Below are positions 4,914 through 34,874 of a stretch of 64,000 nt of DNA, in pieces. The DNA is from Roseovarius aestuarii (GTDB lineage Bacteria; Pseudomonadota; Alphaproteobacteria; Rhodobacterales; Rhodobacteraceae): assembly GCA_027214255.1 (NCBI GenBank), contig JAPWHL010000014.1, forward strand, positions 62,001 through 126,000. Direction: 5' to 3'. A program made the translations under genes and the position numbers. Positions within the stretch are counted from its first letter, which is position 1. Every line of letters begins with the position of its first letter. The notes below the pieces were generated by a model. The model had not been told where the DNA came from and searched no databases. It worked only from the letters and a program-made list of their open reading frames with translations.

Positions 4914-6191
4914 ATGTTGAACGCTGAAATCGCAGAACGCCGCACCGATGCTATCAGTCAGGGTGTGGGCATGATGACCCAGATCTATGTGGATCACGCC
5001 AAAAACGCCGAAGTATGGGATGTTGAGGGCAATCGTTACATTGATTTTGCCGCCGGGATCGCCGTGGTAAACACGGGTCACTGCCACCCCAAGGTCATGG
5101 CCGCCGTCGCCGAACAGGCCACACGTTTCACACACACCTGCCATCAGGTGATGCCTTACGAAAACTACATTCGTCTGGCGGAACGCCTGAACGAAAAAGT
5201 ACCCGGTGACTTTGCCAAGAAAACCGTGTTCGCCACAACTGGCGCCGAAGCCGTTGAAAACGCGATCAAGGTTGCGCGCGTCCACACCGGTCGCTCGGCT
5301 GTTGTTGCTTTTGGCGGTGCGTTCCATGGCCGCACCTTTATGGGCATGTCCCTGACCGGCAAGGTTGCACCCTATAAAAAGGGTTTTGGCGCGATGATGC
5401 CGGATGTCTATCACATCCCCTTCCCGATTGATTTGCATGGCATCTCGACCAAGGACTCGCTGGATGCGTTGAACCTGCTGTTCAAATCCGATCTGGACCC
5501 CAGCCGCGTTGCCGCGATGATCATCGAGCCCGTACAAGGCGAAGGCGGATTTTATCCGGCGCCTGCCGAACTGATGCGCGCCATCCGCAAACTGTGTGAC
5601 GAGCATGGCATCGTGATGATCGCGGATGAGGTCCAGACAGGGTTCGCGCGCACTGGCCACATGTTCGCCATGGAAGGTTATGACGTGGTCGCCGATATCA
5701 CCACTATGGCGAAAGGTTTGGCCGGAGGGTTGCCGTTATCGGCACTGACCGGGCGCGCCGAGATGATGGATGCGGCGCAACCGGGTGGATTGGGTGGCAC
5801 CTATGCCGGTAACCCCTTGGGGATCGCGGCCTCTAATGCCGTTCTGGATGTGATCGAGGAAGAAGACCTGTGTAACCGCGCGAACGAACTGGGTTCGCGT
5901 CTCAAGCAGCGTTTGGAATCGATCCGGTCCACGACACCTGAAATGGTCGACGTGCGTGGCCCTGGCTTTATGGTCGCGGCCGAGTTCAACACCAAGGATG
6001 GCCAGGCCCCGAACCCGGAGCTGACCAATGCGATCCGCCTTGAAGCGCTGAAGCGCGGATTGGTTCTGTTGACTTGTGGCGTTCACGGTAACGTGGTCCG
6101 ATTCCTTGCACCGATCACTGTGCCGGACGATGTGTTTGCCGAAGGTTTGGACATTCTGGAAGAATCGATCGCAGCCGCGCGCGCGCTCTGA
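4914..6191 (+). CDS. gabT: 4-aminobutyrate--2-oxoglutarate transaminase
   Basis: This 425-residue class III PLP aminotransferase converts GABA and 2-oxoglutarate to succinate semialdehyde and glutamate. It shows the PLP-nitrogen aspartate D238 in IADEVQTGFARTG, the Schiff-base lysine K267 in MAKGLAGGLPLSA, and ATTGAEAVENAIKVAR near 107-122. The length matches GabT when ATG 4914 is used; the frame is open upstream to 4794 but that part shows no conserved sequence. It is divergent from the XRE-cupin regulator. No succinate-semialdehyde dehydrogenase is adjacent. A rho-independent terminator lies 25 bases after the stop. Other omega-amino acids or diamines could also be substrates. Confidence 0.9.
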   Translation: MLNAEIAERRTDAISQGVGMMTQIYVDHAKNAEVWDVEGNRYIDFAAGIAVVNTGHCHPKVMAAVAEQATRFTHTCHQVMPYENYIRLAERLNEKVPGDFAKKTVFATTGAEAVENAIKVARVHTGRSAVVAFGGAFHGRTFMGMSLTGKVAPYKKGFGAMMPDVYHIPFPIDLHGISTKDSLDALNLLFKSDLDPSRVAAMIIEPVQGEGGFYPAPAELMRAIRKLCDEHGIVMIADEVQTGFARTGHMFAMEGYDVVADITTMAKGLAGGLPLSALTGRAEMMDAAQPGGLGGTYAGNPLGIAASNAVLDVIEEEDLCNRANELGSRLKQRLESIRSTTPEMVDVRGPGFMVAAEFNTKDGQAPNPELTNAIRLEALKRGLVLLTCGVHGNVVRFLAPITVPDDVFAEGLDILEESIAAARAL

Positions 6192-22070: not shown

Positions 22071-23897
22071 TTAAGCGGACACTTTCGAAATCGGAACAGT
22101 AAACCAGAAGGTGGTTTTGCCGTTCTCTTCGCTGTCGAAGTCAATCGCACCGCCGGTTTGTTCAATAATCTTCTTGGTGATGCTAAGGCCCAGCCCAGTT
22201 CCCCCGCGCTCTTGGTTGTTGGTGGGCAGGTCTTGGGAAAACGGTTTGAAAATCTGCTTGCGGAATTCTTTGGAAATGCCGCTGCCATAGTTGGTTACTG
22301 ACACTTTGATGTCGTCGTCTGCTTTCTCAAGTGTGACATCAATTACGCTGCCATCATTGGCGAATTTCGCCGCATTGGACAGCAAGTTAGACATGACTTG
22401 TTGGAACCGTTTAGGGTCAACCAGCCCTTTCAACTCTTTGTCTACAATCCGTGTTTCGAACTGGACGCCGAATTTCTGAGCGTAGGGGCGATTGAGCGAA
22501 ATAGCGTCTTCGATCAAATTGGAAATCGGGTGGTCCGAGAGAGAGTACCGCATTTGACGGGCCGAGAATTTTTCAAAATCCAGAATGTCATTCACTAGGG
22601 ATTCAAGCCGGCTTCCGTTCTTTTGCGCAATGCCAATCAGTTTGCGCGCACTATCAGGCAGAGAAAATGCATCCGTTGAAGACAAAAGCGACAACGATCC
22701 CAGCAGGGATGTCAAAGGGGTGCGCAGTTCGTGGCTGACCGTGGCCACAAACTGATCCTTCAATTCATCAAGACGTCGTTGTTCAGTGACATCAACAATC
22801 TGCGAGATGAAGTGATCCGGTTTGCCGTTACTATCGACCACCATCCCAACACTCACTAACCCCCACATGACGGCACCGTTGGAGCGCAGATAGCGTTTCT
22901 CGGTTTGGTAGGATGAAGTTTCACCTGCTTTCAGTCGTTTGAACTGTTCTAGATCTTTTACCAGGTCATCTGGATGCGTGAGTGTTTGGAAATTTGTCTT
23001 GAATAGTTCCTCTTCGGTGTAGCCAAGTATTTCGCAAAGCGCGGTGTTTACTTGCAGAAATTCGCCCTCCAGTCCCACGACGGCCTTGCCGATGGTGGCG
23101 TTCTCGAAGGAGGACCGGAATTGTTTGGCTATTCGGTGATATGCGAGTTCGATCTTTTTGCGTTCGGTGATATCGCTCATCGCGCCAGTGGCTTGAACGA
23201 CTTTCCCTTCTGCGTCCCGCTTGGATACCGCCATGTCGGCGCTGACCCAGCGCCATTTTTTCCCGTCTTTCGAGCGCGTGCGATACTCGCAACTGACACG
23301 CTCGGATTCGCCGTTGAGACAGTCTTGCAAAAGATTCGTCACGGTCTCGGCATCATGTGGATGCACGCGGGATCGCCATTCCTCCATCAACGGCTGGGTT
23401 TCACTGCCATCCAGCTCCATCAGTTCACGCCACATATCCGAAACGCTTAACTTGCCGGTTTCACAGTCGTATTCAAAAACCCCGATACGTGCACCGTTTA
23501 TGGCGTTGTGGGCGCGTTTCAACTCTTCGCGCGACAAACGGGCCGCTTTGACGTCCTCTGCGATGTCTCGCATCGCCAACGCATGTTGTCGATCACCGTT
23601 GGTGTCAGTCCAAGCCGTCAACTGGATGAGGAGCGGGATGGGGGTGCCACTTTGGTTTATACCGGGCAAATCTGTGATAACGGCTGAATATGCAGGTGGT
23701 TCAATATACGCGCTGAGCTCGGACATCGTCTTGACTGACAAAACATCGAACACTGACAGGTAATTCAATGTGTTGTCTTCGTACCCGAACAACCGACTAG
23801 AGGCTTGATTGCAGTGGTGGATAACGCCGTCAGGCCCGACGATCATGAGGGGGACCTGCATATGCATAAACGCATCTATGATTAAAGATTCGCCCAT
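22071..23897 (-). CDS. Soluble PAS-PAS-PAS sensor histidine kinase
   Basis: This protein of about 608 residues has no membrane helix. Three PAS domains lie in tandem at roughly 10-110, 135-250 and 255-375. The second and third end with the PAC-like MSDITERKK and QIVDVTEQRRLDE. HisKA follows with phospho-acceptor His in FVATVSHELRTPL. The HATPase domain shows N box NLLSNAAKFAN, G1 YGSGISKEF and G2 GGTGLGLSITKK. There is no receiver domain. It is the last gene of a leftward signalling run (receiver, Hpt and receiver-dGGDEF genes upstream). ATG 23897 is used; GTG 23918 would add seven residues. The cytosolic PAS domains suggest a redox or small-ligand cue. Confidence 0.88.
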   Translation of the reverse strand: MGESLIIDAFMHMQVPLMIVGPDGVIHHCNQASSRLFGYEDNTLNYLSVFDVLSVKTMSELSAYIEPPAYSAVITDLPGINQSGTPIPLLIQLTAWTDTNGDRQHALAMRDIAEDVKAARLSREELKRAHNAINGARIGVFEYDCETGKLSVSDMWRELMELDGSETQPLMEEWRSRVHPHDAETVTNLLQDCLNGESERVSCEYRTRSKDGKKWRWVSADMAVSKRDAEGKVVQATGAMSDITERKKIELAYHRIAKQFRSSFENATIGKAVVGLEGEFLQVNTALCEILGYTEEELFKTNFQTLTHPDDLVKDLEQFKRLKAGETSSYQTEKRYLRSNGAVMWGLVSVGMVVDSNGKPDHFISQIVDVTEQRRLDELKDQFVATVSHELRTPLTSLLGSLSLLSSTDAFSLPDSARKLIGIAQKNGSRLESLVNDILDFEKFSARQMRYSLSDHPISNLIEDAISLNRPYAQKFGVQFETRIVDKELKGLVDPKRFQQVMSNLLSNAAKFANDGSVIDVTLEKADDDIKVSVTNYGSGISKEFRKQIFKPFSQDLPTNNQERGGTGLGLSITKKIIEQTGGAIDFDSEENGKTTFWFTVPISKVSA

Positions 23898-24168
23898 CTG
23901 CCTCACATTTCCCGTCACTGACTGGCCCGGTTAGGGAGAATCCCTGCAGACATCACCGCGCCGTCATACCTTCAAAACTGAACCACAGACAAATTTAGCT
24001 CTATCGTGGAATCCGGCCAGATAAAACCGAACAGCAGACGAACATGCCTACTTCACAGTTCGATATCCGGACCAGCATGACCCTAGAGGAAATCCCTCTT
24101 AAAGCAACCGCTTCGCCAGAGTCATTTCCCCATAGACATGTCTACAGACGAGAAATCAAGTTTTAGAT

Positions 24169-24558
24169 TCAGACAGCAATCCGTGGATGGCACATTTGCA
24201 TCGTTGTCATAATCTGGGTGCTCAAGGTCAGAGGATCGAACGGCTTGCTGATGACCTGTGCCGCGCCCAATTGATACAGCCATTCTACATCGTTGCTTTG
24301 GGCACGTGCGGTCATGAAAATGACAGGGACTTCGCTCAGGGATGGGTCCTTGCGAAAGTGTTCAAGTGTTTCGGGGCCTGTCAAACCCGGCATCATCACA
24401 TCCAGCAGGAACAAATCGGGTTGAAGGTGCGCGACGGCTTTTATGGCGTCCTCTCCTGACTCGCATTGAGTGACGTCAAAGTCGCCTGACAGAGATAACG
24501 CCATCAGCGCGATCTCACGAATGTCGGCATCATCTTCGACGTGAAGGATTTTTATCAT
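24169..24558 (-). CDS. Single-domain response regulator (CheY-like receiver)
   Basis: This receiver of about 129 residues has no output domain. The acidic pocket is in HVEDDADIRE, the phospho-acceptor Asp in LFLLDVMMPGLTG, the switch Thr in VIFMTARA and the conserved Lys in VISKPFDPLT. ATG 24558 has GGAG six bases upstream; ATG 24576 would add six residues. It lies 270 bases upstream of the PAS kinase and about 100 bases downstream of the Hpt gene on the same strand. It is therefore well placed as a phosphorelay intermediate between kinase and Hpt. Confidence 0.88.
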   Translation of the reverse strand: MIKILHVEDDADIREIALMALSLSGDFDVTQCESGEDAIKAVAHLQPDLFLLDVMMPGLTGPETLEHFRKDPSLSEVPVIFMTARAQSNDVEWLYQLGAAQVISKPFDPLTLSTQIMTTMQMCHPRIAV

Positions 24559-24656
24559 ACCTTGCTCCGGTGACATTTTTACGGTGATCTTGTGTCTGAG
24601 GCTGATGTGGCAACACCATCGTTACGTTGGAATTGCCCATGTTCGCCCATGCAGAT

Positions 24657-24989
24657 TCATTTAGATGTTTGAACGTCCTCCAGCTTTGAAATGACGTTGT
24701 CTATTTTGATCAATAGCTCGGGATTGACCAAAGTGCTTTGGTGGATCATTTCGTCTACTTCAGCGGCCCCTGCGCCGAGATCAGGATAGCCCAAAGTGGC
24801 TGCAGTTCCTGCAATTTTGTGATTGATTTCACCAATTTCGACCAAGGCTGCAGGTGCTGCCGAGGCGTCTTGCAATTGTGACACCAGAATTAACAACCGG
24901 TCTTGCCTGATTTGAGATTCTTCAGCGAAACGCGCGCGCACGCGCGTTAGGCCGTCAGAAATGTCGCTGTAGTTTGTGGAATATGACAT
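24657..24989 (-). CDS. Hpt (histidine phosphotransfer) domain protein
   Basis: This 110-residue stand-alone Hpt protein carries the motif HKIAGTAATLGYPDLG with phospho-acceptor H57, followed by a helix ending in DEMIHQSTLV. Hpt proteins shuttle phosphate between receiver domains. It starts 16 bases after the stop of the upstream receiver-dGGDEF gene and is evidently co-transcribed with it. With two kinases lacking receivers, one single receiver and three receiver-output proteins nearby, it could distribute phosphate among them. Confidence 0.88.
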   Translation of the reverse strand: MSYSTNYSDISDGLTRVRARFAEESQIRQDRLLILVSQLQDASAAPAALVEIGEINHKIAGTAATLGYPDLGAGAAEVDEMIHQSTLVNPELLIKIDNVISKLEDVQTSK

Positions 24990-25005
24990 TACTGCCCCTT
25001 TTTGA

Positions 25006-25992
25006 TCAATGTCCGAAGAGCATTCTCAGTGGTCCTGCACTGGAGATGACTTTTCGGGCACGGGGCATGCTAGCAACTTCCTCGGCGGCGGCCAATGCCT
25101 GGGTCAAAACGTTTGCCGTTCCACGTGCAGATTTGAGGTGCATCGAGATCGGGCGGCCTACGACCGGCATCAATGTCATTGGGCGACCATCGCAGAAATG
25201 CAGATCCATTTCACGAACTGTATCACAAAGCTGACTTTCAAAATCGGCCTCGTCGAATGCTTCTCCGTCGGTCAAGACACACACGAATTCGCCATTGCCA
25301 GCATGGGCCGCAAAATAGCTTCTTGATTTGAGGCTATCCGAAATTGCCTCGGCAAAGTCGCTGACGGCGGCCTGATACTCATAGAGGCTGCTGGTCTGGA
25401 AGGTCCGTTCCATGTCAGGGACGACGACCCCGAAGGCACGCATGCCAAACAAGGACATGCGCGAGACCTGCAATAGATAGTTTTCCAGCGCCAGGTATTC
25501 GATGAAACCATCGATTCCCGACAGCGCGATACGTGTGTCGAAATCTGCCTGAGTGACCGTCGCGGTTGCATGACGCGTAACCGGGATCGGGTTGCGGTCT
25601 GTGTTTTGTTTGCGCTCTTCGACGCGGTCCTGAATTTGGCGAAGGCGGGCATGGACCTCGCCAATTTCGAAAGGCTTCGTGATATAGTCGCTTGCGCCTG
25701 CAATGAATGCCTTGTCGATATAGGAACGGTCTGACATGGCCGTGATCATCACGATTGGAGTCGCGGCGTACTGTGGGAATTTCCGAATGGCCGAGGCCAA
25801 CTGGATCCCGTCCATTTCGGGCATCTGAATATCGAAAAGGCAGCAGTCAAATGGAACGCTGTTTTGCTCCACTGCTTCAAGCGCCTGATGCGCGGATTCG
25901 CACATGGTCAGATTTGTAAACCCTACCACCCGTAGAACATTTTCCAACAGCTCAAGAATGATTGGATCATCGTCAACAGCTAGGATTTTCAT
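25006..25992 (-). CDS. Response regulator with degenerate GGDEF output domain (paralogue A)
   Basis: This 328-residue protein begins with a receiver domain (MKILAVDDDP; phospho-Asp in CLFDIQMPEMDG; Lys in DYITKPFEIGE). A linker to about residue 150 and a C-terminal domain follow. That domain aligns by eye to GGDEF proteins, with HAGNGEFVCVL where active diguanylate cyclases have GGDEF. The second Gly and the Asp are lost, so cyclase activity is unlikely. It could bind nucleotide or act as a protein-interaction output. Two paralogues lie at 28666 and 30092. It is co-transcribed with the Hpt gene. Confidence 0.8.
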   Translation of the reverse strand: MKILAVDDDPIILELLENVLRVVGFTNLTMCESAHQALEAVEQNSVPFDCCLFDIQMPEMDGIQLASAIRKFPQYAATPIVMITAMSDRSYIDKAFIAGASDYITKPFEIGEVHARLRQIQDRVEERKQNTDRNPIPVTRHATATVTQADFDTRIALSGIDGFIEYLALENYLLQVSRMSLFGMRAFGVVVPDMERTFQTSSLYEYQAAVSDFAEAISDSLKSRSYFAAHAGNGEFVCVLTDGEAFDEADFESQLCDTVREMDLHFCDGRPMTLMPVVGRPISMHLKSARGTANVLTQALAAAEEVASMPRARKVISSAGPLRMLFGH

Positions 25993-26270
25993 TGTAGTTT
26001 GTCCCTATTCCAGCTTGTGAGCCTCGGTCGAGTATTGCTCGTTAAAAGTGTATTCATGATCCAATACAACCTTGGCGTAAGTACGGCGAAGGTCAAAGAT
26101 GAATACACTTTTGGGATTTTTTTGAAATTGGCTAACATACTGTGTACATTACCTTTTGGTTATACGCAGTGAAAAACTCTACCACTGATTGTGATACTTG
26201 CCACATTGTTGCCAATCTTTGCTTTTTTGCGTCAAGTCCGTACATTGCAAAGCAGGCAAGATGCGCGACG

Positions 26271-27638
26271 TCAGGCGTCTTCGTGCACCGGCAAATCCAC
26301 ATAAAAGGTTGTTCCCGGACCTTCGTTGCGGAAGTAATCCAGATCTCCGGAATGCGCATCGACGATACGTTTGGAAATGTTCATGCCCAGCCCGGTACCG
26401 CCAATCTTGCGACGATCCGAAGAGTCCAGTTGACTGAATTCTTCGAACACTGTCTGGCGGTCTTCTTCGTCCAAGCCCACTCCGCAATCGATGACTGATA
26501 TGCGTGCAAACTGACCGCGATCTTCGGCGCGGATCGTGACTGTTTGCCCGGATTCTGAAAACTTGGCGGCATTGGACAGAATGTTGGACAGGACCTGGTT
26601 CATGCGGGCTTCGTCGATTTGCACGCGCAGATGCGCGGGGCAGGGCTCTAGTACGAGGGTGACGCCCAGATTGTCTGCAAACGGCTGATTAGAGCTGACA
26701 GACTGCTCTATGAATGACGCGACCTGAGTGGTTTCAAAGTTAAAGGTCATGCGTCCGGCTTCGATCTTTTGCAGGTCTAGTAAGTCGTTGATGAGCGCGC
26801 CCAACCGGCCAACGTTGCGTTGAGCAATCGACAGCGCACTCGTCATTTTTTCAGGAATTTCACCAAACGCGCCATATTCGATCAGATCAAGCGACCCTTT
26901 GATCGAGGTGAGGGGCGTCCGTAATTCGTGGCTGACCGTTGACAGGAATTCGGACTTTGCCGTGTAGGCAAGCTTTGTCTTTTCGTGTTCGCGTTTGATA
27001 TCTTCCATTTGTTCTAACGTCTTCTCGTAGAGACTGCTGGAAATGCGCGAACATTCGGTGATGAAGAACATGACGAACACGCTGGTGAAGAACTGCGCCC
27101 ATAATTCGGACGACAGCGGCGCCTTGGTCACGGCAATGTCGTAAAGAGGGATGAAAAGAAAGGTGACAAAGTAGATCGACAGTCTGAGGTGAAGGATGGA
27201 TTTCAACTGATGGTTGTTCATAGTGGCAAAAAGGCCAGCAGCGAACAAAAAGAACAATGACATGAAGTGCGTGGTATGCCCCTGTAGCAATGCGATCGAT
27301 AGCGCGAAGCCGGAAATAATGATAGCGCTTATCAAAGTGGCAAAGAGCAATAGCTTTAGGCACAGCTGCGAATCCTTGATGCTGCGTTGTTTCATACGCA
27401 GAATTCTACGATATGTCAGCGTGTCAAAGACCTCTGAGAGGATCAAGGCCATTGCCGTGATGACGGCAACTAAGACGCTGTAATAGAATGCTTCTAGTAG
27501 TAGTGCCGCAGTATAAATCGCCCAGCGTTGCACGATCAGACCAACCCCGGCACGCGCATAATCGGTCAATTGCGCGTTCAGCATGAACAGATTCCGTGAG
27601 TTTCTGTAGTTTGCTCGAAAGTAATTCTTTAGCAACAT
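26271..27638 (-). CDS. Membrane-bound sensor histidine kinase
   Basis: This 455-residue protein has an N-terminal half with about six hydrophobic helices (for example YTAALLLEAFYYSVLVAVIT and LCLKLLLFATLISAIIISGF). They form a membrane sensor resembling integral MASE-type modules, with no large periplasmic loop. A short coiled linker leads to HisKA (FLSTVSHELRTPLTSIKGSL), then HATPase with NILSNAAKFSES, DCGVGLDEEDR and GGTGLGMNISKR. GGA lies upstream of ATG 27638. It is divergent from the AHL-synthase gene across 200 bases, which makes that gene a possible target or functional partner. A membrane-embedded sensor suits a hydrophobic signal; this is inference. Confidence 0.88.
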   Translation of the reverse strand: MLLKNYFRANYRNSRNLFMLNAQLTDYARAGVGLIVQRWAIYTAALLLEAFYYSVLVAVITAMALILSEVFDTLTYRRILRMKQRSIKDSQLCLKLLLFATLISAIIISGFALSIALLQGHTTHFMSLFFLFAAGLFATMNNHQLKSILHLRLSIYFVTFLFIPLYDIAVTKAPLSSELWAQFFTSVFVMFFITECSRISSSLYEKTLEQMEDIKREHEKTKLAYTAKSEFLSTVSHELRTPLTSIKGSLDLIEYGAFGEIPEKMTSALSIAQRNVGRLGALINDLLDLQKIEAGRMTFNFETTQVASFIEQSVSSNQPFADNLGVTLVLEPCPAHLRVQIDEARMNQVLSNILSNAAKFSESGQTVTIRAEDRGQFARISVIDCGVGLDEEDRQTVFEEFSQLDSSDRRKIGGTGLGMNISKRIVDAHSGDLDYFRNEGPGTTFYVDLPVHEDA

Positions 27639-27838
27639 TTCGTATCCTAAGACGGCTTATATCCCTAGTCTTCGCCAAGCATGTGCGTGGCATAGATATA
27701 CAATTTACCAATGTTTTGGTGGTAGTATTATCGCCTAAGTCAATCAAAAATAACACTTGAACATGGCGAAGGTATGGCTAAATGATGCAATCATAGGTTT
27801 AGTTGTCGGAACAAGCTTTGCTGAGAGTGAGGTCCACC

Positions 27839-28585
27839 ATGGGCATGCAGAAACAAGTGGACCGGGAAAGTCGGGCAAAAGACGTTTTTCCCGAAATCCG
27901 GCCGCAATCGCAGCTGGCGACGTCTGGCAAGTTCAGTGTGATCGAGCACAAGGAAAACCAATTCAGCAAGAAAGCGCCCGAGTTAACCAGCGAGATTCAG
28001 GGCACCACCTTGTCGTTCAGTAACATGCATCTTTACGGCTCGCTTTGCGCAAACCATCTAAGAGCACGCCGAGAAGTGTTCATTGAGGGCAAAGGTTGGG
28101 AGCTGCCACAAGCGGAAGGCATGGAATTCGACCAGTATGATACGCCTCAATGCCGGTGGGTTGTCGTTCATGAATATGGGCGCATTCTTGGCGGAATGCG
28201 GTTGCTTCCAACGACTGCCAAATGCGGGCAATACACATATATGCTTAGGGACGCCCAGTGCGGGTTGCTTGCAAATATCCCGCAGGACATTTTGTTTTTT
28301 GACGCCCCGATCCGTCCAGATATATGCGAGGCAACGCGGCTTTTCATCGCGTCATCCGTTTCGTCCAAGCGACGCCTTATTGTTCAGACGATTTTGCTGG
28401 AACAGATGGCGGCCGCTGCAAGAGAAATGGGCGCGACCGCCGTTATCGGTATTGTCCCAGCAGTGTTCAGCCGCTGGATGAAACGCATCCGAATGAGTGC
28501 GACCCCGGTTGGCCCGGCCATGAACATCGACGGGGACAAGACCCAAGCGGCTTTGATGAGCGTTACCCAGAACATGGTCAACTAA
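27839..28585 (+). CDS. LuxI-family acyl-homoserine lactone synthase, no adjacent LuxR
   Basis: This 248-residue protein matches the autoinducer synthase family. All eight invariant residues of LuxI/EsaI-type enzymes can be placed: Arg and Phe in RARREVF, Trp six residues later (GKGWELP), both Asp in EFDQYD, Arg in GGMRLLPT, and the Glu-x-x-Arg pair in CEATRLF. Spacing from the first Arg to GGMR is identical to EsaI (24, 28, 34, 45, 48, 68). The ExxR pair comes 14 residues later than usual, and there is an N-terminal extension of about 53 residues. Family chemistry joins S-adenosylmethionine to an acyl-ACP or acyl-CoA to make a diffusible AHL. GAGTGAGG precedes ATG 27839. No LuxR gene is in the window. 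Confidence 0.82.
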   Translation: MGMQKQVDRESRAKDVFPEIRPQSQLATSGKFSVIEHKENQFSKKAPELTSEIQGTTLSFSNMHLYGSLCANHLRARREVFIEGKGWELPQAEGMEFDQYDTPQCRWVVVHEYGRILGGMRLLPTTAKCGQYTYMLRDAQCGLLANIPQDILFFDAPIRPDICEATRLFIASSVSSKRRLIVQTILLEQMAAAAREMGATAVIGIVPAVFSRWMKRIRMSATPVGPAMNIDGDKTQAALMSVTQNMVN

Positions 28586-28633
28586 ACCATCGCGGGCACA
28601 GACCCGGAAGGTTTCCGATCTGTTTTGCCTGCT

Positions 28634-28667
28634 GACCTGCCGTGGCCGCTGTGCGCGGCGGCAGGTC
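28634..28667. terminator. Bidirectional hairpin between convergent genes
   Basis: GACCTGCCG / CGGCAGGTC form a perfect outer stem with an inner CCGC/GCGG stem, ending inside the stop codon of the convergent receiver gene. The rightward 3' flank ATTTGTATT is moderately T-rich. It probably terminates the AHL-synthase transcript. Confidence 0.55.
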
Positions 28668-29682
28668 ATTTGTATTCCATTTCCGTGGTTTTTCTTTCGA
28701 CCTCGTTGATCTTTGCAAAGATCCGGCCTTCGATTTCATCTACCTGCGGCAAACTATCCGACGACAGGCTGTTGCTCGCCTGAAATTCTGTCCGAACAAG
28801 TGCCACGATAGCGTCTCTTGACAGGATGTTCATGTTGGACAGCGACGTCACCTCCAGCGCTGGTGTCTCAGCATCTTCGGTGGCTAGGTTCTTTAATGCG
28901 GTACAGGCAGAAATTTGGTCTGGGTTCTTGAACAAGCCGGACACTTTCGTATCCCGCCCAATGATACAGCAAACGAACCGCCCATTTCCGATGTAGGAAA
29001 ACAGCAACCGTTTATTGGGGATGGCATCTGAAATTCTGCTGCTGACATCGTGTAGTTGCCGCATGACCTGCACGCGGTCGAGGTTTCGGTTCATGGTTCT
29101 AAACTTGCGCATCCGAACGCGGAACAGGCTGAACTGATATTGTCCCTGCGGCATTCTGAGCAGGTGGTTTTCCAGATGATGATAGTCGACCATGCTTTCG
29201 ATGTCTGCAAAGCAGGCCCGCTCACCTAGATCAATGAGATTGAAATCGGCGCCGCAGGATATAAGCGTACGTAAGGCGGTGCGCCCTTGGCGTTCCTTTT
29301 TCGTTGCCGCGACCAAAAGCATCGCCATTCTGATGCGGCCTGCAATTTCAATGTCGCACAGCGGTTTCCTAAGGAAATCCGTCGCGCCTGCAGAGAACGC
29401 TTGCCCAATCAGAGAGGCGGACTGGTTCGAGGTGATCATAATGATAGGCGCGGACTTGCACGTGGGATGCTGGCGAAGACGGTGGCACAATTCGATGCCA
29501 TCCATATCGCCCAGCATTATGTCCAAAAGAAAGCAATCAAACGGGATGCGCTGCTGCTCGACCAGTTCCAATGCTTCTTCGGCAGAGGCGGCGAGGGTGA
29601 TCCGAGCCAAACCTTGCAATGCCAGTTTCTCGGAAAATATCCCCCTGAAGACTGGGTCGTCATCAACCAAAAGGATTCTCAT
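28666..29682 (-). CDS. Response regulator with degenerate GGDEF output domain (paralogue B)
   Basis: This 338-residue paralogue of the proteins at 25006 and 30092 has an intact receiver (MRILLVDDDP; FLLDIMLGDMDG; FLRKPLCDIE). The C-terminal domain carries FSYIGNGRFVCCI at the GGDEF position, so it is more degenerate than paralogue A and not expected to make c-di-GMP. It ends convergently with the AHL-synthase gene, 80 bases away, with a shared hairpin between them. The three paralogues differ mostly in the output domain, which suggests separate partners. Confidence 0.78.
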   Translation of the reverse strand: MRILLVDDDPVFRGIFSEKLALQGLARITLAASAEEALELVEQQRIPFDCFLLDIMLGDMDGIELCHRLRQHPTCKSAPIIMITSNQSASLIGQAFSAGATDFLRKPLCDIEIAGRIRMAMLLVAATKKERQGRTALRTLISCGADFNLIDLGERACFADIESMVDYHHLENHLLRMPQGQYQFSLFRVRMRKFRTMNRNLDRVQVMRQLHDVSSRISDAIPNKRLLFSYIGNGRFVCCIIGRDTKVSGLFKNPDQISACTALKNLATEDAETPALEVTSLSNMNILSRDAIVALVRTEFQASNSLSSDSLPQVDEIEGRIFAKINEVERKTTEMEYK

Positions 29683-30091
29683 TTTCGCAGGCTCCCTAGA
29701 ATATAGTCCGCATACATGAATTCTACTTAAGGGAGTGTGGTTCTCTAAAGTGGCAATATTGAAGCGCTAAGAGGGATGATGGAAGTTTTTCCTGAAAATT
29801 TCCAAGACATTGAAAAATAAGTAAAAATATAAGGATCTTTCCGTCAAGTGTGGCAGGTAGGTCCAATTGGCGTCATATTTGGGCTGTCTGACACCGCCGC
29901 CAAATTGGCGAGAGTACAGGAAATACTGACAACCCAGGGTAATTATCGCCGATCATAATTAACTCTTAGGGATATCACAATTTGGACAGAATGCACGCAT
30001 AGGTAATACCGGACGAACCTTACGAAGCGCCGGAACCCGCACACATGAATGCGGGCCGAAGCCTCAGACAAGAACAGAAGGAATTGCACAG
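29683..30091. other. Divergent promoter region between receiver paralogues B and C
   Basis: About 410 bases, noticeably A+T-rich for this window (for example around 29800-29840), separate two divergently read receiver-dGGDEF genes. A near-repeat CCAATTGGCG (29863-29872) and CAAATTGGCG (29901-29910), 38 bases apart, could be paired protein sites. AGAAGGAA precedes paralogue C. No gene is seen. Confidence 0.5.
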
Positions 30092-31072
30092 ATGAAGATT
30101 ATGGCTGTTGATGATGACGTGATTTCGTTGGATCTTCTGAGTGAGTGCCTAGGGCAGGGCGGGTATGAGCATGTATCGCTTCTTCCCTCATCAAGCGGCG
30201 TCGTTCAGATGTTGATGGATACTGCGATTGCGTATGATTGCATTCTTCTGGATGTAGATATGCCCGGCAAGAATGGAATCGATTTGTGTTCCGAGATACG
30301 CAATCTTCCGCGCTACCGGAACACACCGATCATAATGATCACAAAGCACAATGAGCATACCGCGATCGAGCGGGCATTCGGGAACGGCGCGACGGACTAC
30401 ATCACCAAACCGTTCGAATTCTTCGAGGTGATTACACGTATCAAAGTTGCCGAGCGGCTGGTTCGGGAACGACAGGCCGCTCTGGACAGCTATATTCGTG
30501 TGAAAGCCGGTTCGCGGAGTGAGCGTAACCTCAAGCTTGTTTCGCCCGCGACAAAAGCTCGCAAAGCGAAAGAAGCCGAGGATGCAAGTATCACAACCGA
30601 TGAAATCATGTCTCAATCGGTCTTTCAGAACTATTTGGAAAAAGCCACGCAGACTGAAGATTGCTCGATCGATCTGATTGCCATCAAAGTGCGGAAAATC
30701 GATGGGATTTTCGCTCAGGCCAGCCCGGAAGAGTTTGTTAGCTTCCTCGGGAACGTGGCAGATGCGGTGATCCGCGAATTCGGTGCCGAGAAAACATTCC
30801 TGACGCATGTTGGCAACGGAACGTTCTTGTGTGCCACGTCGGTTCCTTACACGACGACTATAGAGGACATGGAGAAATCCGTGGCAGACCGATTGGCGGC
30901 AGGGCCATTGCCGCTTGTCTGTCAGAATGAGATTCGCCCAGCGGTCAAAGTCGGCAGGGCGTTAACCTTGAAAACAAACGCCAAGCTCAACTTCAATCGC
31001 GCCTCCAAGGCTGCAATCGCCCGGTTGGAATACCATGAGGGTGCATTGGAAGGCGCAAGCGTCGCATCCTAG
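30092..31072 (+). CDS. Response regulator with degenerate GGDEF output domain (paralogue C)
   Basis: This 326-residue protein has receiver motifs MKIMAVDDDV, ILLDVDMPGKNG and DYITKPFEFFE. The C-terminal domain holds THVGNGTFLCAT at the GGDEF signature position, so a cyclase active site is absent. A basic linker (about 145-175, KARKAKEAED) separates the two domains. It is divergent from paralogue B and convergent with the RTX gene. It is probably a phosphorylation-controlled protein-protein or ligand-binding switch within the same phosphorelay. Confidence 0.78.
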   Translation: MKIMAVDDDVISLDLLSECLGQGGYEHVSLLPSSSGVVQMLMDTAIAYDCILLDVDMPGKNGIDLCSEIRNLPRYRNTPIIMITKHNEHTAIERAFGNGATDYITKPFEFFEVITRIKVAERLVRERQAALDSYIRVKAGSRSERNLKLVSPATKARKAKEAEDASITTDEIMSQSVFQNYLEKATQTEDCSIDLIAIKVRKIDGIFAQASPEEFVSFLGNVADAVIREFGAEKTFLTHVGNGTFLCATSVPYTTTIEDMEKSVADRLAAGPLPLVCQNEIRPAVKVGRALTLKTNAKLNFNRASKAAIARLEYHEGALEGASVAS

Positions 31073-31226: not shown

Positions 31227-34200
31227 TCACACGATATCTATGTCGTTTGCCAACTGTGCCTTGGTGGCATTTTCCACAAGCAAAGTACCGTCGGCTCCAA
31301 AGTCGAAGAACACGTCCCCATCAACGTTGACGGCAAGGGCCAACGCATCGGCCGCTGTGGCGAATCCTGCGAAATTGTCCAATTCGATCACGTCGATGTT
31401 GTTCTCAAAGTCCTTGATCACATCATTGCCTTCGCCACGGTCAAAATGAAACACATCTTGGCCAGCGTCACCGTAAAGCAGGTCGGTGCCTGTACCGCCT
31501 CCGCCATCAAGATAGTCATTGCCAGATCCGCCGCGCATCGTGTCCGCACCGTCAGCCCCATAGAGTGAATCGTCGCCGGAGCCACCGACCAAGCTGTCGT
31601 CGCCACCGTAGCCGTGCAGGCGGTCGTTGCCGCCATAGCCACGCAGGATGCTTTCGCCATCCGTGCCGCGCAGCGTGTCGTCCCCGGTGTTAGAGCCGGA
31701 GGCACCTTCAAAGTTCTGAACGACATCGTTATTGGCCCATGATCCCGAAGCAAGGTTGCTTCGGAAATCCAGATCGACCCCGCCTGCGCTGTCGTAATAG
31801 CTGATGTAATCCGTGCCGGACCCGCCGTCATAAGTGTCGGCCCCACCGCCCGCGCGCAGGTAATCATCCCCACTGCCCAGTTGGATCAAGTCGTCACCGT
31901 CTCGGTCATAGACATCGTCATCGCCACCATAGGTGCGAATGATATTGTCGCCGTCGGTGCCCCGGAACGTGTCGTCGCCAGTGCCCGAACCCGAGCCCCC
32001 TTCAAAGTTCTCTACCGTGTCATTGTTGGCCCATGATCCGGTGGCGGTGTTCGCCGCAAAGTCGATGTCCACACCACCCGAGCTGTCATAATAGCTGATA
32101 TAGTCAGTGCCGCTGCCGCCATCATAGCTGTCGGCCCCGCCGCCTGCGCGTAGGTAATCATCGCCCGAACCCAACTCGACCGTGTCTGCACCGCCCCGAT
32201 CATAGACGCGGTCATCCCCGCCATAGGTTCGGATCACGTTGGACCCGGAGGTGCCGCTGATTTCGTCGTCTCCGTTGCGAGAGCCTGACGCGCTTTCGAA
32301 ATTTTCGATCGTATCGTTGCTTGCCCACGAACCGCTGGCAGTGTTGGCGGCAAGGTCCAGTGTGACGCCGCCCGAACTGTCATAATAGCTGATGTAGTCC
32401 GTGCCGCTGCCGCCATCATAGCTGTCCTGACCGCCGCCGACGCGGATATAGTCATCGCCGCTGCCAAGGCTGATGCTGTCCGCACCAAGGTGATCATACA
32501 CCCGGTCATCGCCGCCATAGGTGCGGATCAGGTTTGCGCCATCCGTGCCCGAAAACGTATCATCGCCCGTGCCCGAGCCTGATCCACCCTCGAACCCGGT
32601 GACAACGTCATTATTGGCCCAAGATCCGGTGGCCGTATTCGCCGCAAAATCAATGTCGACGCCGCCCGAACTGTCATAATAGCTGATATAGTCGGTTCCC
32701 GCGCCACCGTCATAGGTATCGGCCCCACCGCCCGCGCGCACGTAATCGTCGCCATCTCCCAAGCTGACAAAATCATCGCCACGCCCGTCAAATGCGCGGT
32801 CCGCGCCATTGTCGGGAAGGTTCGCCAAAGTTACGGGAAAAGCCCCGCCGCCGTCTGCGCGTTTGATCAGCGATGCGCCACCAACAACGTCAGGCACAGA
32901 AAACCCGACCGTAGGGTCGACCACCCAATTGGCCGCCAGATTATCGGCACCCGCCGGATCGGTGATCTGAACGAAGGCGTTTTTGCGGATTTCTTCGGCC
33001 GTGCGCACATCACTCCACAGGCGGATGTCGCCGATATCTCCGCTTAAAATCTCGTTGGGCGAAAAACCTCCGCCCTCGCTGTCTTGCTCTTGTCCGAAAA
33101 TAAGCGCCCCCCCCGACACCAGACCGCCTGTATCGGCGGTCGCGCGGAACAGTTCGATGCCATCGACATACATGATGGTTTCGCCCGAAGTGGCGTTATA
33201 GCTCAGCGAGACGCGGTGCAATTCTCCATCGTTCAACTGGTCTGAGGGCTGTCCGGAATCATAGAATTGCCCGTTTAGGGCAAAGGCGGACTCTTCATCG
33301 CCAAAGTTACGGGTATAGATGCCCAAGGCGTTCGCCCCGCCGGGGGCGGAGTCGAAATAGGAAACCAGATTGCTTGAGGTGCCGGGCTGTGGACCAACCG
33401 AGCGGTACATCATCTCGATGGTGAAATCGCCATCCGGCATGATGTAGTCGTCAACGCCGATATACTGATTAGTGGTGAGGTTGGTGTTCATCCGGATCAT
33501 TCCGGGCTGATAGCCGCCAATGATGATATCATCATCCGCGCCACCCTCTAGCGTGTCATCCCCGTCACCGCCCAGCAAGATGTCGTTCCCGTCCCCCCCA
33601 CTGAGCGAGTCGTCCGCTCCGCCACCGTTCAGAAAGTCATCCCCTTTGCCACCGCTTAGAACGTCATCCGCGCCGCGCCCTTCCAAATGGTCATCCCCGG
33701 CCAGCCCCAATAGGGTGTCTTGATAATTCCCTGCGATCAATCGATCGTCTTCAGCACCCAGCTCAAATGTGGATAGGCCATTGTCCAATGCGCCTGTGCC
33801 GATCAGAACAGGGGTGCCGTCGACGTTGACGAACGTGTTCTCATAGGTTGTGTCTAGGTGTTGGTTAATTCCGTCTTCATAGGTGTCAATTTCGGTGAGT
33901 ACGCCATTGGTTGCGACATGGAACAAGACCAACGCATCATCGCCGGTGGCCGAAGCGGCCAGAAACGTCTCGCCCTCGATTTCGAAGGTCGTAAGGCCGT
34001 TGACTTCGGCCAGTTTCAGTGTGTCATCTGCCTGTATGTTAAATACATTGCTTAAAGCGCCCGCTGCACCAATGCGAAACACGCTGATGCCGGATTCGGT
34101 CGAGCCGCTGACGAAAAGATACGATTGAGTGCCGACATGGGCTGTCGCAAGGTTACTGGCCCCATTTAACTGCAAATCGACCGAGTCCGCGTCTGTCGTG

Positions 34201-34874
34201 CTGTCAAGAAAGATAAGCGAACCTGCCGCGTCCAACTGAAAACGAGACACGCCGTTTTCCAGTGGGCTTGTCGCAAAAACATATGTACTGTTGCCGATAT
34301 CTATGGAGGCAACGGAGTTGACAAAATCCAGAGTGGCCTCTGCATGTACGCTGTCGTCGACATTATCGGTGTTGGTCAATGTACCGTCGGCTGCGATGGA
34401 AAAGACGCTGATGCCATCATCATTTCTGCCCGCGGCGACCAGATAGTTTATTCCAGCGACGTTGGCGGTGGTCATGCGCCCCGATGCGCCGTCCAGATTA
34501 AGCAAACCTGCGTCGCTTACGTTTTGAGCCGAGGTTAGCGCGCCGTTCGCTTCGACCCGAAAAACGCTAAGACCGTCGTCTAACGGTCCATTTGCATAGA
34601 GATAGGTGTTGGCCCCTATCGTCACCGAGGTCAAACTTTGCGCGCCGCGCAGGTTTAACGCAGCAGTGTCTGAAATCGCGACGCCAATGTCGGCCAATGT
34701 GCCGTCAGCAAGCACTTCGAAGCCGGTAAGCCCGTCGTCCTGATTGCCCGCGACATAAACGAATGTGCGTCCGTTGGCGGTGACAGTATGCACACCAAAT
34801 GCGCCTTGTAACTGGAATATCGCATTGTCATTCACGTTCGTGCGGTTGACTATATCTCCCATAAGTAGGGCCAT
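31227..34874 (-). CDS. RTX calcium-binding secreted protein with propeller-like and LamG-like domains
   Basis: This 1,215-residue secreted protein has no Sec signal and is probably exported by type I secretion through its C-terminus. Residues 1 to about 375 hold six or seven blades of about 50 residues with a GISVF/GLSVF-x-GxL pattern, like lactonase-type beta-propellers. An RTX nonapeptide block follows (GGDGNDILLGGDGDD). Next is a LamG/concanavalin-like domain near 460-650 (DFTIEMMYRS; GDIRLWSDVRTAEEI), then four 98-residue repeats and a final RTX block with DVFHFDRGEGNDVIKDF. AAGGAG precedes ATG 34874. Likely roles are surface adhesion or extracellular binding. No type I secretion genes are adjacent. 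Confidence 0.88.
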   Translation of the reverse strand: MALLMGDIVNRTNVNDNAIFQLQGAFGVHTVTANGRTFVYVAGNQDDGLTGFEVLADGTLADIGVAISDTAALNLRGAQSLTSVTIGANTYLYANGPLDDGLSVFRVEANGALTSAQNVSDAGLLNLDGASGRMTTANVAGINYLVAAGRNDDGISVFSIAADGTLTNTDNVDDSVHAEATLDFVNSVASIDIGNSTYVFATSPLENGVSRFQLDAAGSLIFLDSTTDADSVDLQLNGASNLATAHVGTQSYLFVSGSTESGISVFRIGAAGALSNVFNIQADDTLKLAEVNGLTTFEIEGETFLAASATGDDALVLFHVATNGVLTEIDTYEDGINQHLDTTYENTFVNVDGTPVLIGTGALDNGLSTFELGAEDDRLIAGNYQDTLLGLAGDDHLEGRGADDVLSGGKGDDFLNGGGADDSLSGGDGNDILLGGDGDDTLEGGADDDIIIGGYQPGMIRMNTNLTTNQYIGVDDYIMPDGDFTIEMMYRSVGPQPGTSSNLVSYFDSAPGGANALGIYTRNFGDEESAFALNGQFYDSGQPSDQLNDGELHRVSLSYNATSGETIMYVDGIELFRATADTGGLVSGGALIFGQEQDSEGGGFSPNEILSGDIGDIRLWSDVRTAEEIRKNAFVQITDPAGADNLAANWVVDPTVGFSVPDVVGGASLIKRADGGGAFPVTLANLPDNGADRAFDGRGDDFVSLGDGDDYVRAGGGADTYDGGAGTDYISYYDSSGGVDIDFAANTATGSWANNDVVTGFEGGSGSGTGDDTFSGTDGANLIRTYGGDDRVYDHLGADSISLGSGDDYIRVGGGQDSYDGGSGTDYISYYDSSGGVTLDLAANTASGSWASNDTIENFESASGSRNGDDEISGTSGSNVIRTYGGDDRVYDRGGADTVELGSGDDYLRAGGGADSYDGGSGTDYISYYDSSGGVDIDFAANTATGSWANNDTVENFEGGSGSGTGDDTFRGTDGDNIIRTYGGDDDVYDRDGDDLIQLGSGDDYLRAGGGADTYDGGSGTDYISYYDSAGGVDLDFRSNLASGSWANNDVVQNFEGASGSNTGDDTLRGTDGESILRGYGGNDRLHGYGGDDSLVGGSGDDSLYGADGADTMRGGSGNDYLDGGGGTGTDLLYGDAGQDVFHFDRGEGNDVIKDFENNIDVIELDNFAGFATAADALALAVNVDGDVFFDFGADGTLLVENATKAQLANDIDIV
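31537..32715 (-). repeat. Four tandem 294-bp repeats inside the RTX gene
   Basis: The block encoding DYISYYDSSGG recurs every 294 bases (98 codons), for example at about 31.79, 32.08, 32.38 and 32.67 kb. Each unit holds YDGG-GTDYISYYDS, a SWANND strand, a GTGDDT..GTDG turn and IRTYGGDD calcium repeats. Units are similar at DNA level, so copy number may vary by recombination. The coordinates are approximate. Confidence 0.85.

Follow-up and report, generated by a model that had tools for sequence, protein, structure and literature searches.

We analysed a 64,000-nucleotide stretch of the Roseovarius aestuarii genome (positions 62,001 to 126,000 of contig JAPWHL010000014.1, assembly GCA_027214255.1), referred to here as the window, in which a gene for a LuxI-family N-acyl-homoserine-lactone (AHL) synthase adjoins one for a membrane histidine kinase. 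The receptor of a LuxI signal is generally assumed to be LuxR, acting inside the cell. The contig, C27 in our numbering, belongs to a genome of 4.4 Mb in 121 contigs. From left to right, open frames and Pfam domains give a PAS histidine kinase, a lone receiver, an Hpt protein, a receiver with a degenerate GGDEF domain (REC-dGGDEF) and the membrane kinase, all on the minus strand, then luxI on the plus strand and two further REC-dGGDEF genes on the minus and plus strands (Table 1). The original prediction, made from the letters alone, had placed luxI between a divergent membrane kinase and a convergent receiver-dGGDEF gene and had listed a second kinase, a receiver and an Hpt protein in the same 9 kb; frames, strands and domains bear out both points.

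Table 1. Features of the locus at 22071-31072 (positions in the window).
Feature	Position	Strand	Basis and remarks
Soluble PAS histidine kinase	22071..23918	-	PAS, HisKA, HATPase_c; single marginal hydrophobic segment
Single-domain response regulator	24169..24576	-	PF00072, 86.4 bits
Hpt phosphotransfer protein	24657..24989	-	PF01627, 22.2 bits, just below the Pfam cut-off of 24.6; motif HKIAGTAATLG
RECdg_a, receiver with degenerate GGDEF	25006..25992	-	PF00072; model matches WspR, DgcR and PleD; GNGEF motif
TGGC-N7-TGGC repeat, second copy, upstream of RECdg_a	26200..26214	-	Pattern search
Membrane histidine kinase, proposed receptor of the LuxI product	26271..27638	-	HisKA, HATPase_c; six-transmembrane sensor at about residues 20-210; no receiver
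TGGC-N7-TGGC direct repeat, upstream of luxI, possible operator	27764..27778	+	Window and 3/3 aligned close relatives
LuxI-family AHL synthase (delta type)	27839..28585; open frame from TTG 27803	+	PF00765; eight residues; about 248 amino acids
RECdg_b, receiver with degenerate GGDEF, convergent to luxI	28666..29682	-	PF00072; aligned with other REC-dGGDEF rows
RECdg_c, receiver with degenerate GGDEF	30092..31072	+	PF00072; aligned with other REC-dGGDEF rows

The synthase scores 51.3 bits with PF00765 (cut-off 24) and falls far below the cut-offs of the NCBIfam TraI-type models (28.6 against 292 and 24.3 against 250). All eight invariant LuxI residues had been claimed for it, and R89, F93, W99, D110, D113, R133, E176 and R179 (numbered from the TTG), which we take to be the LuxI catalytic set, are indeed present and invariant across all 22 aligned sequences. 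From these conserved residues we infer that the protein makes an AHL. Its start is probably the ATG at 27839, because M13 is nearly invariant in the alignment; 200 bases separate this codon from the divergent kinase gene. A second LuxI is encoded on contig C55 of the same genome.

In the membrane kinase Pfam finds HisKA and HATPase_c only, without a receiver, so that the protein is not a hybrid kinase. A structural model of its first 210 residues (pLDDT 89) predicts six long hydrophobic helices in a bundle with short loops, the multi-transmembrane arrangement without a large periplasmic domain that is typical of LuxN/CqsS-type receptor kinases. A Pfam search with this sensor gave no significant match (best E 0.87), and Foldseek with the model returned nothing under E 0.001 and no clear fold match. 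The best 60 of 86 sequence matches among solved structures all start at profile position 199 or later, none of them lying outside the kinase core. This lack of a match to a Pfam family or, among those listed, to a solved structure is one of the new findings here.

The synthase and the sensor occur together. Among 100 relatives, 60 of them in the same genus, 48 have a LuxI match at E 0.001, and in 24 the identity to the window LuxI is at least 45%, the next value being 29%. A search with the sensor domain alone retrieves 29 of the 100, comprising all 24 with this LuxI and 5 of the 76 without it (Fisher tests of co-occurrence, uncorrected for kinship, give 1.5e-18 over all 100 and 3e-12 within the genus). 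The conserved synteny of synthase and kinase that had been proposed as a check is found in 23 of the 24 relatives, and in the remaining one, G025, each gene sits on a contig that ends there. A scan of named genomes gave at least 567 confirmed relatives, and the best 80 loci were retained; judging by titles and genus names, these are presumably all from Rhodobacterales. In a set with one genome per genus (296 genomes), LuxI is found in 153 at E 1e-20 and the sensor in 38 at E 1e-15, with 40 sensor matches, 26 of which have a listed LuxI match no more than 5 kb away. The other 14 sensor loci were fetched and contain no LuxI of this family; 6 adjoin FeeM, a synthase considered below, and 8 no recognised synthase. 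A class-wide sample yielded the sensor in 2 of 289 genomes, both in the family to which the window belongs.

We collected 134 LuxI loci including the window, 127 after removal of duplicates, and scored a kinase within 7 kb or a LuxR within 2 kb as a partner. Of these, 98 have a kinase only, 24 a LuxR only, none both and 5 neither (3 of them at contig ends). Broader LuxR profiles leave these counts unchanged; the one LuxR that they add, in locus L057, adjoins a second LuxI and lies at a distance of 8.6 kb from the kinase-linked one. Where a LuxR is adjacent, it is a short protein that matches PF03472 and has a helix-turn-helix-like match (3 of 3 tested). The window LuxI belongs to the same synthase family as the LuxR-paired sisters, but no cognate LuxR adjoins it. 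Most kinase-linked LuxIs have an N-terminal extension: the alignment begins at model position 16 or before in 68/98 of them and in 0/24 LuxR-linked ones, where the earliest start is at 34. On the LuxI tree the partner labels require 4 changes, and at least 2 changes of the LuxR label cannot be avoided given the well-supported branches; one branch of 27 rows (100% SH-aLRT) unites 20 LuxR-linked with 7 kinase-linked proteins. In 96 kinase-linked loci, the distances between LuxI proteins show a correlation of r 0.74 with those between sensors and of 0.68 with those between kinase cores; the partial correlations are 0.46 for LuxI and sensor given the core and 0.25 for LuxI and core given the sensor, all of these values being inflated by shared species history.

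These data bear on whether LuxI and the kinase merely travel together on a signalling island and are functionally unlinked. Other relay genes accompany the locus, as do P450 or Ser/Thr kinase, FHA and dynamin genes in some cases, which would fit such hitch-hiking. The neighbouring genes, however, vary widely between loci while the LuxI-kinase pair persists, and kinase-linked LuxIs recur within a LuxR-linked branch of the tree, and we consider this explanation very improbable.

The sensor is also found beside a different synthase. In five genomes of the genus that have the sensor without this LuxI, the kinase directly adjoins a FeeM-type N-acyl amino acid synthase and an S-adenosylmethionine methyltransferase; PF21926 identifies FeeM in 2 of the 5, the two tested with Pfam. 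Candidate N-acyl amino acid ester loci combining FeeM, a methyltransferase and a six-transmembrane kinase are L095-L099, L215-L218, L220 and L222. In L215 methyltransferase and FeeM are fused; the methyltransferase that accompanies FeeM in L220 and L222 is of another kind, membrane-type and PEMT/ICMT-like. FeeM-linked sensors fall into two groups on the sensor tree (9 and 2 rows), each at its own place among the LuxI-linked ones, so that coupling of this sensor to a second class of acyl-signal synthase seems to have happened twice. This is the strongest sign that the sensor reads the product of the adjacent enzyme rather than an unrelated cue, and related kinases beside a second kind of synthase suggest that there is a family of membrane receptors whose ligands are fatty-acyl signals. 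The sensors beside FeeM and methyltransferases would then read N-acyl amino acid (ester) signals. Among such esters, the compounds termed NAMEs are known from Roseovarius and Loktanella (PMC6296433), one producer being Roseovarius tolerans EL-164 (GCF_028885395.1, PMC11580390); no candidate gene for their synthesis is reported by 2024, and they are described as neither interfering with nor inhibiting AHL-based sensing (PMC11580390). FeeM together with a methyltransferase would be a natural candidate for NAME synthesis.

A kinase that controls the synthase would give a similar linkage, and the main alternative is accordingly that the kinase responds to an environmental cue and, via its relay, regulates the expression of luxI or the activity of LuxI, with a LuxR-type protein encoded elsewhere reading the AHL. 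Several observations count in its favour or against a kinase receptor. A LuxR-type protein is encoded in each of the 38 genomes of the genus-spread set that bear the sensor, so that the objection from LuxR still stands, and LuxR adjoins the kinase in two sensor loci without LuxI, L218 (with FeeM) and L223 (two LuxRs, no synthase seen). A conserved direct repeat with 11-bp spacing also lies between the kinase and luxI, of a kind presumably favoured by regulators of the OmpR/PhoB class. Its fuller pattern matches the window 3 times against 0.02 expected, having been drawn from two of these three matches, and the genome has 6 exact matches to TGGCRAMNNTRTGGC against 1 for the reversed pattern. 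The simpler TGGC-N7-TGGC, which we take to resemble an OmpR/PhoB-type site, is found in the start regions (470 bases) of 18 of the 98 kinase-linked luxI genes, against 0.9 in composition shuffles, and of none of the 24 LuxR-linked ones; some of the 18 occurrences fall within frames or a long way upstream, and close kin account for many.

Set against this explanation, Pfam finds no DNA-binding domain on any receiver of the locus, and the adjacent LuxR of the LuxR-linked sisters is missing from the kinase-linked LuxIs. Neither the window nor contig C27 has a PF03472 LuxR; the genome's two matches are on contigs C77 and C44. The C77 LuxR is 69% and 66% identical to LuxRs of genomes G035 and G012 that directly adjoin orthologues of the C55 LuxI (64% and 57% identity). 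Because these orthologues are adjacent there, the C77 and C55 genes look like a separated LuxR/LuxI pair, and the C77 LuxR would then have a synthase of its own; in G009 the two orthologues are apart, as in the R. aestuarii genome. As for the C44 LuxR, its PF03472 span (468-477 bases) is matched among the listed matches in 45 of the 60 genus genomes whether or not they have this LuxI, a count made from the listing and not from a tree. Finally, a purely environmental cue does not predict the exchange of LuxI for FeeM on the same sensor. We regard this alternative as rather unlikely.

A related possibility is that the kinase and a solo LuxR are two receptors for one AHL. Most genomes of the genus encode a solo-type LuxR, and a LuxR adjoins the FeeM-kinase pair in L218, but an informal reading of the match listing reveals no LuxR type whose presence tracks this LuxI, and such sharing seems quite improbable.

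We put at roughly two in three the probability that the kinase replaces LuxR as the receptor of this LuxI and that the signal is read through a phosphorelay. As judged by comparative sequence analysis, this reading is well supported by the linkage, by the absence of both partners together from any LuxI locus examined and by the exchange of synthases. The idea had been advanced in the original prediction in the form of a signal read by a phosphorelay instead of LuxR, and comparative support for it is now available; the absence of LuxR holds at the locus and fails for the genome, with its C77 and C44 proteins, and for the 38 sensor-bearing genomes in the genus-spread set, and the idea itself is not new. 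A broader version, to which we give about even odds, would make the six-transmembrane sensor a receptor family for N-acylated amino-acid-derived signals in Roseobacteraceae, served interchangeably by LuxI (giving AHL, perhaps modified by P450 in some genera) or by FeeM with a methyltransferase.

In the proposed mechanism, the AHL made by the LuxI homologue would partition into the membrane. Linkage, co-evolution and topology point to the six-transmembrane domain of the divergent kinase as the part that would bind it, and the ligand would shift the balance between kinase and phosphatase activities. From the gene content, phosphate would pass to the REC-dGGDEF proteins directly or via the lone receiver and Hpt. 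The model of RECdg_a resembles WspR, DgcR and PleD, and Pfam detects no GGDEF in this gene; a GxGxF motif replaces GGDEF, its third position being glycine in all 30 aligned rows, RECdg_b and RECdg_c among them, and the earlier reading of a degenerate GGDEF was right for 25006-25992. Pfam finds no output or DNA-binding domain on any of the four window receivers, three of which bear a degenerate GGDEF. Compared with a Vibrio-type relay (Hpt and a LuxO-type output regulator), the Hpt is there and the output domain is not. With neither a DNA-binding domain nor an active-looking GGDEF on any receiver at the locus, output might, speculatively, occur by protein-protein contact or by onward transfer to another relay. 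REC-dGGDEF genes lie within 8 kb in 69/98 kinase-linked LuxI loci, 5/11 FeeM loci and 0/24 LuxR-linked loci, and Hpt is found in 11/98 kinase-linked LuxI loci.

Several known systems resemble this arrangement in part. In Vibrio CqsA/CqsS and Legionella LqsA/LqsS the synthase gene adjoins that of the kinase and CqsS is a hybrid kinase; by comparison, the window synthase is LuxI-type and the window kinase lacks the hybrid receiver. In Vibrio LuxM/LuxN an AHL is read by a membrane kinase and a relay; LuxM and LuxI are unrelated proteins, and the kinase LuxN has more transmembrane helices than the six of the window kinase. Ralstonia PhcB/PhcS, which is not known to include a LuxI or FeeM acyltransferase, is described as a system in which a methyltransferase makes an ester signal and a histidine kinase senses it, the arrangement that we predict for the FeeM-methyltransferase variants. 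In topology the window kinase is like CqsS, a histidine kinase with six transmembrane helices that responds to a lipophilic signal and whose membrane domain has been fused to the catalytic domain of an adenylate cyclase (PMC4821796); CqsS feeds the LuxU-LuxO phosphorelay (PMC3310172). LuxN is a hybrid kinase (PMC3824088), which the window kinase is not.

That a LuxI signal might be read by a kinase is already in print as a hypothesis: Cude & Buchan 2013 described, as topologies H, I and J, loci in which an orphan luxI adjoins a histidine kinase gene, the kinases being at most 26% identical to LuxN, and suggested LuxN-like sensing (PMC3824088). The window, with luxI beside a histidine kinase and without luxR, is such a locus. 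Their topology I includes Roseovarius nubinhibens ISM (PMC3824088), whose locus (L106) groups with the window on our LuxI tree (6 rows, 99% SH-aLRT). Their trees cover 38 genomes, and the word cytochrome is absent from their text (PMC3824088); Zan et al. 2014 reported 17 luxI solos (PMC3907830). In titles and the beginnings of abstracts, a body of literature that leaves out most subscription journals, we found no experimental follow-up of orphan luxI-kinase loci. New here are the partner counts over 127 LuxI loci and the presence of the sensor in 24/24 relatives with this LuxI against 5/76 without it. The pattern of alternative partners and the FeeM exchange sharpen the earlier hypothesis to one of a specific, testable receptor family. 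If this is true, a widespread LuxI branch is read at the membrane by a kinase, which would change quorum-sensing annotation in a main group of marine bacteria; reasoning based on LuxR would overlook the receptor of these signals, and there would be direct candidates for both synthase and receptor of the orphan NAME compounds.

A cytochrome P450 gene lies near luxI in 25 of the 98 kinase-linked loci (e.g. L064:6800-8290 and L055:11825-13276) and in none of the 24 LuxR-linked ones, a distribution that might reflect modification of the AHL in those genera. At the window's locus the P450 profile finds none. About one in ten kinase-linked loci has Ser/Thr kinase-, FHA-, PP2C- and dynamin-like genes clustered beside it (e.g. 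L064:11894-19859, L055, L116), with Ser/Thr kinase genes in 9/98 and dynamin-like (DYN1) genes in 11/98, the Ser/Thr kinase and PP2C genes being named by eye. In L063 (genome G055) the kinase gene adjoining luxI seems split into two frames. Loci L100-L102 contain a third sensor-kinase subfamily beside dnaX-, mutL- and rmuC-like genes, also named by eye, and no recognised synthase. In the window, a third copy of the repeat lies at 5656-5670 (minus strand), and the relay genes adjoin a gene at 31227-34874 (minus strand) for a 1215-amino-acid RTX repeat protein with pentaxin-like and lactonase-type beta-propeller matches.

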